A DNA stretch of 43,102 bases from an uncultured Desulfuromonadales bacterium (lineage in GTDB: Bacteria > Desulfobacterota > Desulfuromonadia > Geobacterales > CAIOGM01): assembly GCA_903929485.1 (NCBI GenBank), contig CAIYUY010000233.1, positions 1 to 43,102 on the forward strand, in the 5' to 3' direction. Below are positions 3,976 to 43,102 of this stretch, piece by piece. A program made the translations under genes and the position numbers. Every line of letters starts with the position of its first letter. Position 1 is the first letter of the stretch. A model generated the notes under the pieces. That model was not told the origin of the DNA. It saw only the letters and a program-made list of their open reading frames with translations, and searched no databases.

Positions 3976-5172
3976 ATGAACAGTATTATCATGATCTGTG
4001 ATGACCCGCGTATCGGGTTGGTTAAGGAGTTCCTCCAGCCTCTCCTGAACGCCAAGGTCTGTATCGTTTCGGACTTTGACAGCGGTTTGGAGGAGGTCTT
4101 TGAAAAACGGCCCCAGGTCGTCTTTATTCAGGATGAAATCGCCGGGGTCAAAGGGAAGGTGGTCATTCGTCATATCACGTCCCTCCTTCAGGAAAATTCT
4201 CCCCAGTTCGTCCAACTGCATCATCCGGTTACCGGCCCCGGCATCCCGTCTTCCCTGGGCGACGGCATAAATCTGGATGTTACCGATGAGGAACTTGTCG
4301 CGCTGTTCAAGGAGAGGATGGAGCAGTTTCCTCAAATTTGCTGGAAGGAAGATGTCATGAAACCGGCGCGGATCGCTTTGGCTCTCCCCGCGCCGGACGA
4401 CTTTCCTCGTGACGAGCCATTCTCTTTTGTCTCCCCTTCCGTTGTCGAGCCGGTTTCGCGGCCGGTGGAGCAGGCTCCTCCCCTTGAGCCCTCCGTTCCT
4501 TCCCGGAGCAAGACGCCGGGCTCTTCGGAAATGAGCGTCGGGCCGGAGTTGCTCCTCGCCACTCAGCCGGCGCCGGAAGGCGCGGCGATGAAAGGCGGCG
4601 ATTCCCGGGAGTCGTCGTCCTTGGCGGGGTTCGATCCTCCCCCCCCCCGGCGCAGGGTATCGCTTGCCATCGGCGGGGGAGTCGCGGCGCTTGTCTGCGG
4701 TACGGCTCTCTCCCTGTTTTTTCCCACGGTTTTGCTCCCCCGGGGTGATAACGACTTGCCTCGACATCCGATTCCCGTTTCCGCGCCGGTGAAACAGCTT
4801 CCCGTGGCGTCGGCGTTCCCGCAAAAACTCCCCTCATTCATTCCCAGGGAAGGGTTTGATCCCGCCTACGGAGCGAACAAGCGCGGCTGGGAACGCTATG
4901 TCTCGCCACGGCTTGAGTATCTCATCTATCGGGAAAACGGATCGTTTCGGGCGCTTCAGGTGATCGCTCTCCAGCAGGAAGCCATCGACCCCCCTCTTGT
5001 CTCCTCACTGCTTCGAGAACTCTGCGGTGACACCACCTGTGTCATCGTCTCCAGCTCCAGTCACGACGATTATCTCATTGAACAGGGGAAGAGTCCCCGT
5101 GGGATGGAAGTTAGCTTCTACAAAAAGAAAGGTACCGGTGAAACCCGCGGGGTTGTTATTTCACTTCCCTGA
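3976..5172 (+). CDS. Membrane protein with degenerate receiver-like N-domain and periplasmic C-domain
   Basis: I do not recognise a named family for this 398-residue protein. Residues 1-115 resemble a response-regulator receiver: MNSIIMICDD supplies the first strand and acidic pair (Asp9, Asp10), and PQVVFIQDEIAGVKG aligns with the phospho-acceptor strand but has Gln52 where the phosphorylated Asp is expected, so phosphotransfer is unlikely. Residues 120-223 are low-complexity and rich in Pro, Glu and Ser. One transmembrane helix (about 228-252, after RRR) follows, then a periplasmic domain of about 140 residues with a possible disulfide in CGDTTC. The topology (cytoplasmic sensor-like domain, one helix, periplasmic domain) is reminiscent of secretion or pilus inner-membrane assembly proteins, and the gene is followed 23 bases later by a secreted protein and then a GspE-type ATPase. 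Function is inference only. Confidence 0.8.
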   Translation: MNSIIMICDDPRIGLVKEFLQPLLNAKVCIVSDFDSGLEEVFEKRPQVVFIQDEIAGVKGKVVIRHITSLLQENSPQFVQLHHPVTGPGIPSSLGDGINLDVTDEELVALFKERMEQFPQICWKEDVMKPARIALALPAPDDFPRDEPFSFVSPSVVEPVSRPVEQAPPLEPSVPSRSKTPGSSEMSVGPELLLATQPAPEGAAMKGGDSRESSSLAGFDPPPPRRRVSLAIGGGVAALVCGTALSLFFPTVLLPRGDNDLPRHPIPVSAPVKQLPVASAFPQKLPSFIPREGFDPAYGANKRGWERYVSPRLEYLIYRENGSFRALQVIALQQEAIDPPLVSSLLRELCGDTTCVIVSSSSHDDYLIEQGKSPRGMEVSFYKKKGTGETRGVVISLP

Positions 5173-5195
5173 CAGGGTGACGGTAGACCCCTCGT

Positions 5196-6545
5196 ATGGA
5201 CAGACCCATGAATTACGCTGTTACATCCCTGCTTGCTGTCTTGGCTCTCATTGGAGGGATCGTCGGTGAGGCTTATCCCCTTGACCGGCGCTTTGAACTG
5301 GATACCCAGCTCCTTGAGCAGAAAATTACCTCCGCGGCCAAGGTGAAACAGTCGCTCCCTGGGCAACGTCCTTCCCGTAAGTCGGAGGCGCGTCTCCGGC
5401 GCTCGCCGCCGGTGAAAGAATCGGTGACTCCCGACGTGGGGGTGACGCTCCTCAATATCGCACCCGCCCATGTTCCGGAGGAGTTGGCTGCGTTGCGCGC
5501 TCTCTGGGACAAGCTGATCCCCGAATCCCGGATCCAGGGGACGCTGGAATTGGGGTCGGACAACTTTTCCCTGGTGCTGGATCCCAGGTCATATCAGGTC
5601 ATGCCGGCAAGCGACGGCGGGCGGATCATTATCGACGCCAACCGGACCATTCCGCCCCTGGTGAAAAAACTCATTCAGGAGAAGGATCCCGCCTTGCGCA
5701 TCGTCTCCGGGAGCCCGCTTGCCGGGAACGGTTTTTTATGGCAACTGCTCCAGTCAGCTGGTTTCTATTCCGTTGAACCGGATTTTACCCTGGAATTCGG
5801 CGATGATCCCCGCTTGTCGGTTCGGGCGGAGTATCGCATAGAGCGGACAGCGGAAAGTCTTCTGCGCAACGAGACGGTTCTCCTGTATGCCGCCTCGGGC
5901 CGTTACGCCATGCCGCCATCACTTTGGAGCTTTCTCGGCGCGTCCGGTTTTCGCGTTATCGAACCCGACCTGCCGCGGCATGATGCACCGGTTCTCCGAA
6001 ATCGTTTCATTCAGCTTTCCGGGGGGAGTCCGCTGCAGGTTGCGGATACGGTGCTGGCGGCCCTGGGGATGGCGACGGAAGCCGGCAAGTCCATCGAATT
6101 TCCCGGATGGGTGCGGCAAGGGATTACTCTCAAAGTGCGGCCGGATCGATCCTTCTCCTCCATGGGGAAGCGTTTTGCCCTTACCGTTTATGACGGCAAT
6201 CCGGCCACCTACACCCTCACGCGACTTCTGGAGAGTGAAGGGGTCACCGTTGTTCTCCTGGCCCAGGGAGATGATTCTCATGCCGTGACGGAAAAGCTCT
6301 TCGCCGCGCTTAATCTTCCCGCCAGATTTGATTCCCATCCCCTTTGGCCTCTGGGGGATACACCCTATACGGTGCGGATGAGCGGATTTTTGTTGCGCGA
6401 TTCAGAGCACCGCACACTCTTTTTCACCGATCGGGAGGCTACTCCCCTCATGCTCGACCTCATCGCACGCAACGGTTATGCCGTGACCGGTGTTTTAGCC
6501 GCGGCAGTGAGCGAACATCATGACGAAGAAAAAAAAATTAGGTGA
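5196..6545 (+). CDS. Secreted protein with repeated Gly-Phe/Tyr motifs, partner of the GspE-like ATPase
   Basis: This is a 449-residue protein of unrecognised family. A signal peptide or N-terminal anchor is clear (SLLAVLALIGGIVGEAYP), so most of it is probably periplasmic. The body repeats a short pattern at the ends of alpha/beta units: LQSAGFYSVEPDF, LGASGFRVIEPDL, LESEGVTVVLLAQ and IARNGYAVTGVL, suggesting a multi-copy fold. Two starts are possible, ATG 5196 or ATG 5208 (MNYAVTSLL); neither has a strong ribosome site and the second gives a cleaner signal peptide. The 3' end overlaps the ATPase gene by 26 bases, which argues for coupled expression. With the upstream membrane protein it could form the envelope part of an ATPase-driven machine; that is inference from context. 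Confidence 0.8.
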   Translation: MDRPMNYAVTSLLAVLALIGGIVGEAYPLDRRFELDTQLLEQKITSAAKVKQSLPGQRPSRKSEARLRRSPPVKESVTPDVGVTLLNIAPAHVPEELAALRALWDKLIPESRIQGTLELGSDNFSLVLDPRSYQVMPASDGGRIIIDANRTIPPLVKKLIQEKDPALRIVSGSPLAGNGFLWQLLQSAGFYSVEPDFTLEFGDDPRLSVRAEYRIERTAESLLRNETVLLYAASGRYAMPPSLWSFLGASGFRVIEPDLPRHDAPVLRNRFIQLSGGSPLQVADTVLAALGMATEAGKSIEFPGWVRQGITLKVRPDRSFSSMGKRFALTVYDGNPATYTLTRLLESEGVTVVLLAQGDDSHAVTEKLFAALNLPARFDSHPLWPLGDTPYTVRMSGFLLRDSEHRTLFFTDREATPLMLDLIARNGYAVTGVLAAAVSEHHDEEKKIR

Positions 6546-42414: not shown

Positions 42415-42503
42415 GTAGGGGCGAAGCAAAAGCGGACTGCTTCGCCCTTATTGCCGCGATGATCAAAGGAGGGCGAAGCAGATTAAGCTTGCTTCGCCCC
42501 TAC
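42415..42503. repeat. Tandem hairpin element with 13-bp terminal inverted repeats
   Basis: GTAGGGGCGAAGC (42415-42427) and its perfect inverse (42491-42503) bound an 89-bp element. Inside are two 9-bp hairpins, 42419-42427 with 42439-42447, and 42471-42479 with 42491-42499. Confidence 0.85.
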
Positions 42504-42529: not shown

Positions 42530-42550
42530 CCCCTCCTGTTTTAGGAGGGG
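42530..42550. repeat. CCCCTCCT/AGGAGGGG hairpin
   Basis: An 8-bp perfect stem with loop GTTTT is followed by TTGGGGGTGG. It is similar to a GC-rich repeat found between genes in many bacteria. Confidence 0.65.
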
Positions 42551-42627
42551 TTGGGGGTGGTAAGGTTCTCTTCTGTGAAAAGGCGACTTCCCGCGAAGGT
42601 GACTTGCGACAAAAAGCATACCAACCG

Positions 42628-42703
42628 TCTGTCATCCTGAGCAACGCGAAGGATCTGCTTTTCAAACGGAAGCAGATTCTTCGCTGACGCTCAGAATGAC
42701 AGA
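42628..42703. repeat. 76-base imperfect palindrome (GTCATCCTGAGC family)
   Basis: Arms TCTGTCAT/ATGACAGA, CTGAGC/GCTCAG, GCGAAG/CTTCGC and ATCTGCTT/AAGCAGAT pair around a small loop, with symmetric single mismatches between blocks. The family is familiar as a dispersed intergenic repeat in many bacteria. Confidence 0.9.
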
Positions 42704-42805
42704 CTTTGGGTGATTCGCGGCAAAGTACATACCCGGCAAAATTCCGTTCACCCTTCGACAAGCTCAGGGCGAACGGATTCAGGTTTAATAATCGTCTCTT
42801 TTCCG
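42631..42805. repeat. 175-bp direct repeat, copy 1
   Basis: This copy matches 42928-43102 at a constant offset of 297 bases, with five differences, all in the first 60 bases. It includes most of the TCTGTCAT palindrome and one 33-bp CCGTTC palindrome (42744-42776). Confidence 0.95.
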
Positions 42806-42845
42806 TTCGTGGTGAGCCTGTCGAACCATGAACGGAAAAGAGACG
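42793..42845. repeat. 16-bp hairpin enclosing the inverted 33-bp palindrome
   Basis: CGTCTCTTTTCCGTTC (42793-42808) pairs perfectly with 42830-42845. The interior 42803-42835 is the opposite-orientation version of the palindrome at 42744-42776. Confidence 0.9.
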
Positions 42846-42927
42846 CCGTCCATGTTACGGTACATTTTTTGTCGCGAATCACCTTGGGTGTCGTTTTGTC
42901 CTTTGCTTGTCATCCTCTCTTTTGCTT

Positions 42928-43102
42928 GTCATCCTGAGCAACGCGAAGGATATGCTTATAAAACGGAAGCAGATTCTTCGCTATCGCTCAGAATGACAGA
43001 CTTTGGGTGATTCGCGGCAAAGTACATACCCGGCAAAATTCCGTTCACCCTTCGACAAGCTCAGGGCGAACGGATTCAGGTTTAATAATCGTCTCTTTTC
43101 CG
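42928..43102. repeat. 175-bp direct repeat, copy 2 (cut by window end)
   Basis: Second copy of 42631-42805; it runs to the last base, so its true end is unknown. Its palindrome (42928-42997) has lost one stem pair relative to copy 1 (42952). A 15-base piece TTTGCTTGTCATCCT just before it is repeated at 42902 and 42921. Confidence 0.95.

Follow-up and report, generated by a model that had tools for sequence, protein, structure and literature searches.

In Escherichia coli, BIMEs contain Y and Z REPs, which are inverted partners of two stem types, and GTAG REPs occur with a cognate TnpA-REP. Families of REPs, BIMEs and REPINs carrying GTAG or CGTC tags have been described in the literature (PMC3733652, PMC2817692, PMC3116915). 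For REPs, the literature records tags, dimers, stem variants with complementary changes and a preference for heterodimers, as well as REP dimers lying within longer palindromes; the heterodimer preference, which holds in most REP families, was reported to have "no obvious explanation" (PMC3733652). Complementary mutations are also known from Stenotrophomonas BIMEs, and the sequence nearest to the hairpins described here is a RAYT-flanking REP of Coxiella burnetii, GTAGGTTGGGCTGAGCTTGCGAAGCCCAAC (PMC2817692). The same organism harbors QMITE2, a MITE of 150-190 bp with a GTAG REP inside it (PMC5896051).

The window analyzed here is the whole stretch of 43,102 nucleotides from the draft genome of an uncultured Desulfuromonadales bacterium. 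A sequence-only reading had pointed to a pair of inverted palindromes near its right end that differ by compensated base pairs. The explanation favored here, to which a probability of about three in four is assigned as a whole, is that of a MITE that spread in trans and carries a REP-like inverted dimer, in which the hairpins serve as a structural module and the two partners follow a heterodimer logic.

The hairpin pair and the element that holds it

The reverse complement of 42744-42776, CCGTTCGCCCTGAGCTTGTCGAAGGGTGAACGG, and the sequence at 42803-42835, CCGTTCGTGGTGAGCCTGTCGAACCATGAACGG, are 33-mers with seven mismatched positions (8, 9, 10, 16, 24, 25 and 26). Direct comparison confirmed the reported coordinates and letters: pairs 8-26, 9-25 and 10-24 change from C-G, C-G, C-G to T-A, G-C, G-C, and position 16 is a loop base. 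Hairpin A (42744-42776, minus strand) has the tag CCGTTCG, the inner stem CCC/GGG, the loop CTTGT and the 3' arm GAACGG; hairpin B (42803-42835, plus strand) has the same tag and 3' arm with the inner stem TGG/CCA and the loop CCTGT. The palindrome around hairpin B reaches 42793-42845, and the spacer separating the hairpins (42777-42802, beginning GGTTTAATAATCG) is a signature of the family of elements to which this copy belongs, hereafter family I.

When copies were aligned with their flanks, conservation extended past the hairpins to the ends GGTGATTCGC and GCGAATCACC and stopped there. In the window these ends are terminal inverted repeats (TIRs) at 42709-42733 (plus strand) and 42859-42883 (minus strand), delimiting an element of 175 bp (42709-42883) that contains both hairpins and no gene; other family I copies in the genome measure 174-178 bp. 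Comparison of the flanks showed a 3-bp target site duplication, TTG, on the left (42706-42708) and on the right (42884-42886). By our own count, an exact 3-bp duplication was present in 15 of the 21 complete elements whose two flanks could be read, where about 0.3 would be expected, and the duplications seen were TTA, TAA, TTG, CAA, TGG and CTA. The TIR GGTGATTCGC had 72 exact matches in the source genome (control, 0), with 7 and 12 matches in two other species of the genus and 0 in a third. It was thus present in three of four genomes of the genus and occurred once among 113 other genomes of the order, which makes this MITE end almost exclusive to one genus. TIRs on a short element, a target site duplication and many dispersed near-identical copies are the marks of a MITE, and the element holding 42744-42835 is most probably a MITE carrying a REP-like heterodimer.

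Elements of this kind are stacked at the end of the window, and the contig breaks off within the last of them, a second family I copy (43006-43102, plus strand); 43001-43102 is identical to 42704-42805. To the left, the left end of a further MITE with the same TIR type lies at 42598-42622 (plus strand), its right end missing; its cargo is the TGTCATCC...GAATGACA palindrome (42630-42703), which consists of two fused hairpins of the TGAGC-AAC-GCGAA type and is also carried as cargo by sister MITEs. A 93% copy of this palindrome occupies 42927-43000. Two additional palindromic sequences were observed nearby: a repeat at 42415-42503 (GTAGGGGCGAAGC ... GCTTCGCCCCTAC), with a similar GTAGGGGC palindrome forming the MITE cargo in L199, and a CCCCTCCTGTTTTAGGAGGGG palindrome at 42530-42550, a related CCCTTTCAAGGGGAGGG palindrome pair being the cargo of a TIR-II MITE in L215. 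Many contig ends in G000 (for example those of C9, C21, C30, C73, C74, C76 and C80) fall inside MITEs. The true copy number of the MITEs and their flanks are under-read because many draft contigs start or end within them.

The same TIR encloses other centers in the same genome, either the TGTCATCC...GAATGACA palindrome or the GTAGGGGC palindrome. Other cargos also lie behind it in two sister species, and the dominant cargo there is different again. A second MITE family (II), about 141 bp long with the unrelated TIR CCTGATTGCTACT (30 matches; control, 0), bears the same hairpin pair with a different stem combination, TCC and TGG. Its duplication appears to be of 8 bp, from few examples: TAACATAT in L045, one contig-end pair, and a 7 of 8 match in L215. 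As far as was checked, an interchangeable palindromic cargo of one MITE shell is new. A chimera of families I and II, joined at the shared hairpin, was observed in L073 (G000:C44:4200-4700) and suggests recombination between MITE families at palindromes.

Searches with PF01609, PF13586 and PF13359 found no autonomous parent with GGTGATTCGC ends. A PF01609 match on contig C343 was considered and rejected when its flanking TIR-like decamers turned out to be chance, PF13586 gave no match, and PF13359 gave a single sub-threshold match that lacked the TIR.

A covarying hairpin family across phyla

Common to the hairpins are the tag CCGTTCG on the 5' side, a stem with three variable pairs and the invariant core TGAGCNTGTCGAA. 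This core occurs exactly 209 times in the 5.36-Mb draft genome, compared with 3 occurrences of the reversed pattern, and so is not due to chance; most of the 209 cores form inverted pairs with a start-to-start spacing of about 60 nt. A scan of 84,980 species genomes with CCGTTCGNNNTGAGCNTGTCGAA, in which the stem letters and the entire 3' side were left free, returned at least 118 stretches in many phyla. The matches listed include Sphingomonadales, Burkholderiales, Nitrosomonadales, Methylococcales, Moraxella and Desulfuromonadales, together with Chloroflexi, cyanobacteria, Dadabacteria, Methylomirabilis and Fibrobacteres, and the family spans the Alpha-, Beta- and Gammaproteobacteria. No match to the hairpin was found in the phage isolate collection, no similar sequence in 20,395 E. 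coli records, and Rfam covariance models run against the window matched only a tRNA and neither hairpin.

Among the 167 distinct sequences in the matches listed, Watson-Crick pairs form at 8-26, 9-25 and 10-24 in 92, 95 and 98%, respectively, where independent columns would give standard pairs in 49, 48 and 77%. The set from viral contigs repeats this excess. When each contig contributed a single hairpin, the three pairs were all formed in 91%, against a permuted mean of 23% and a maximum of 36% over 5000 permutations, and slid partners pair in 0-4%. For 64 distinct hairpins, 98.2% of cells are paired and the covariation score is 0.542, compared with 0.170 +/- 0.018 when shuffled (0 of 500 shuffles). 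The proposal that the hairpin structure is under selection is therefore borne out, in many phyla and in collections of genomes beyond the source, with the signal in exactly the three pairs that differ at this locus.

Pairing of the outer arm (28-33) outside the genus is at chance level, and few hairpins (9/179) extend to the full 33-bp palindrome. The inner stem covaries worldwide around an invariant core that can be written TGAGC-N-TGT-CGAA. Tandem GA/GA is retained in 126 of 133 stem-paired hairpins, compared with 10 of 34 unpaired ones, and the loop reads CYTGT in 122 of 140 stem-paired hairpins. The T-GA-G/C-GA-A sequence provides the pyrimidine-GA-purine context that favors sheared tandem G.A pairs in DNA generally. 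The 5' flank of CCCTGAGCNTGTCGAAGGG was CCG(T/C)TC(G/A), which emerged even though it was not in the query, and the 3' flank was unconstrained save for a pyrimidine. The general form of the family is thus a tag plus a short hairpin. The core also occurs in head-to-tail tandem arrays, an arrangement different from the inverted dimers, in L490 (G002:C248:1000-2100), L492, L494, L617 and L625, where it repeats about every 23-24 nt.

Such pairing could have been kept because the hairpins act in RNA, as 3'-end stabilizers or bidirectional terminators between genes. Their siting is compatible with this: all 40 plasmid matches among those listed lie outside annotated genes (in a plasmid gene table that is incomplete), both core sites of one Sphingobium stretch lie between convergent genes, and G-U pairs are tolerated at 7-27. 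A terminator, however, requires no invariant loop, invariant G.A pairs, tag or unlike stems, and no T-run follows the generic form. A role in RNA is for these reasons an unlikely explanation.

Unlike partners in inverted dimers

The compensated change had been read as having occurred within one locus, and this part of the sequence-only reading did not hold. Worldwide, the CCC and TGG stems hold the first and third places in frequency among the types, and 19 of the 24 distinct inverted dimers in the source genome combine them. Because the combination recurs in this way, the pair at 42744-42835 represents one inherited element and no independent event. The two stem versions are common pre-existing types, and the compensation did not arise at this locus. 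Under the favored explanation, the "compensated" difference is probably the usual heterodimer make-up of the CCGTTCG hairpin family.

Unlike stems in inverted pairs are a habit of this family. In 92 inverted dimers, taken one per contig with partners no more than 120 bp apart, the middle stem pair (position 9) was unlike in 75, compared with 50.1 expected under random pairing. Taken apart, the genome set gave 43 of 52 (28.5 expected) and the viral set 33 of 41 (22.2 expected). Hairpins on the same contig more than 300 bp apart showed no excess (41/95 unlike; 48.9 expected), and only 2 of 23 direct dimers were unlike at the middle pair. The rule was formulated after inspection and then tested on 40 further dimers from three held-out genomes, where 30 were unlike at position 9 (19.8 expected, P 0.00025) and 37 were unlike over the whole stem (29.4 expected, P 0.00035). 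By single genome, position 9 was significant only in G059 (13/13), the other two giving 13/20 and 4/7; the whole-stem difference was significant in G042 (19/20). The rule is strongest at position 9 (C versus G), weaker at position 8 and absent at position 10, and is new as far as was checked.

As part of the favored explanation, the proposed cause is avoidance of long palindromes. Partners may carry unlike stems because two identical hairpins would together make up one long perfect palindrome, liable to SbcCD cleavage or to loss by deletion during replication. A flip of the middle pair from C-G to G-C would break the cross-pairing at the least cost to each hairpin. When like stems were substituted, pairing between partners was predicted to be about 10 kcal/mol (DNA) more favorable on average, and the cross-duplex of the window copy was predicted at -26.9, compared with about -48 for a homodimer. 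Actual stems differed little from random ones (1.3 kcal/mol, P 0.017 for DNA; P 0.098 for RNA). The predicted single-strand fold of 42741-42840 joins the two palindromes to each other in preference to two separate hairpins, its 3x3 internal loops falling precisely on the altered triplets; the energy model gives no credit to tandem sheared G.A pairs. This cross-pairing weakens the idea that both hairpins fold apart under all conditions. Palindrome avoidance would be partial at best because heterodimers, too, are predicted to favor long-range pairing.

The heterodimer rule could instead reflect an enzyme that requires two unlike ends, in the manner of IS200/IS605 elements, whose left and right hairpins are not the same. 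The concentration of the rule at position 9, C versus G, would look like two end types, but both orders are about equally common (31 G..C and 26 C..G), the C-to-G flips are also those most disruptive to cross-pairing, and we know of no enzyme that needs two unlike ends of CCGTTCG hairpin dimers. This reading is judged to be distinctly unlikely.

Transposition of the element and comparison with known systems

The sequence-only reading had proposed REP-like logic, and the corresponding anatomy is present: a 5' tag with an irregular hairpin, intergenic siting and inverted dimers. The same anatomy would fit a hairpin pair that is itself mobile as a REPIN, transposed by a RAYT/TnpA-REP through binding of its tag and hairpin in single-stranded DNA, with the MITE ends secondary; the nearly identical core of the RAYT-flanking Coxiella REP would also fit. 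The proposed REP-associated transposase, however, was not supported. The source genome has five Y1_Tnp genes, one of which (contig C30) has a hairpin pair upstream, and those hairpins belong to a family II MITE about 200 bp upstream of the gene. No Y1_Tnp was found in 8 of 23 named hairpin-bearing genomes, these 8 having from 5 cores to the 185 of Sphingomonas sp. Leaf33, and at 30 Y1_Tnp loci (94 kb) from hairpin-bearing genomes no core lay within about 1.5 kb. A small HMM built from the five source-genome Y1 genes and run on 325 loci matched only L293 (Crenothrix sp. D3), in two fragments, which is the other case in which Y1 sequence occurs among the hairpins. There, at 4386-5224, the Y1 transposase fragments lie apart and are flanked by inverted hairpin dimers. 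A cognate Y1 gene flanked by the same repeat, the defining arrangement of a RAYT-associated REP or REPIN, was not found in these sets, and the foot of the hairpin carries CCG(T/C)TC(G/A) in place of a GTAG/GTGG or CGTC tag. The unit that moved in the source genome bears TIRs and target duplications, and 42744-42835 was dropped as a stand-alone REPIN once the alignment of copies placed these outside the hairpin pair. Movement of the hairpin pair by a RAYT is accordingly very improbable. Separately, a RAYT-like Y1_Tnp gene in L002 (G000:C54:1-2361) adjoins an apparent CRISPR array with repeats reading ...ARPFGRAL in frame.

A coincidence or an assembly artifact at the contig end, suggested by a window that ends inside a repeat like many draft contigs, is refuted by the complete, internal 42709-42883 copy with its duplication and by the agreement of many independent copies and genomes.

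Under the favored explanation of a MITE with a REP-like heterodimer as cargo, the GGTGATTCGC ends would have been acted on in trans by a DDE transposase, and the hairpins would have been carried along as passengers as the element spread; DDE is preferred to HUH (TnpA-REP) transposition because HUH enzymes make no 3-bp target duplications. The hairpin itself may be an old module of REP type whose structure has been maintained, comprising the tag, a swappable 3-bp stem, tandem G.A pairs and the CYTGT loop. Its abundance in genomes without any Y1 transposase implies another recognizing factor, most likely a DNA- or RNA-binding one that would read the loop, the G.A pairs and the tag, and not the letters of the stem. 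A further proposal is more tentative, and the balance is somewhat against it: the two types, with C-G or G-C as the middle pair, would be set by a non-RAYT factor that processes unlike pairs or removes like ones, and in this genus two or more unrelated MITE shells would have taken up the pairs as interchangeable cargo.

These observations turn the REP heterodimer puzzle (PMC3733652) into a testable number, since opposed middle pairs prevail among the inverted dimers of different phyla but not among direct or distant neighbors. They also describe a hairpin, invariant in its tandem-G.A core and its loop, that is plentiful in genomes without a Y1 transposase, and, within one genus, a MITE shell with several unrelated palindromes as its cargo. 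A literature search by repeat sequence gave nothing relevant; as far as the texts of the REP literature show, one family of tag and core across phyla with no link to a transposase is new, though an earlier mention may exist.

Among described MITEs, Chunjie of Geobacter uraniireducens, compared by its description (PMC10969869), is also intergenic and 178-235 bp long, with TIRs and direct repeats. The Coxiella burnetii GTAG REP and QMITE2 share with the present element a related core, TGAGCTTGCGAA, and the placement of a REP inside a MITE; they differ in a loop one base shorter, a GTAG tag, direct repeats of 7-11 nt and the presence of a RAYT gene, and the text consulted describes no swappable cargo (PMC5896051, PMC2817692). 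Like REPs, BIMEs and REPINs in general, the hairpins described here combine a short 5' tag with an irregular hairpin, high copy number, intergenic siting, inverted dimers and complementary stem subfamilies. Unlike them, they carry the tag CCGYTCR, compared with GTAG/GTGG or CGTC+AT, have no transposase association, retain one core over many phyla and are enclosed in MITEs.
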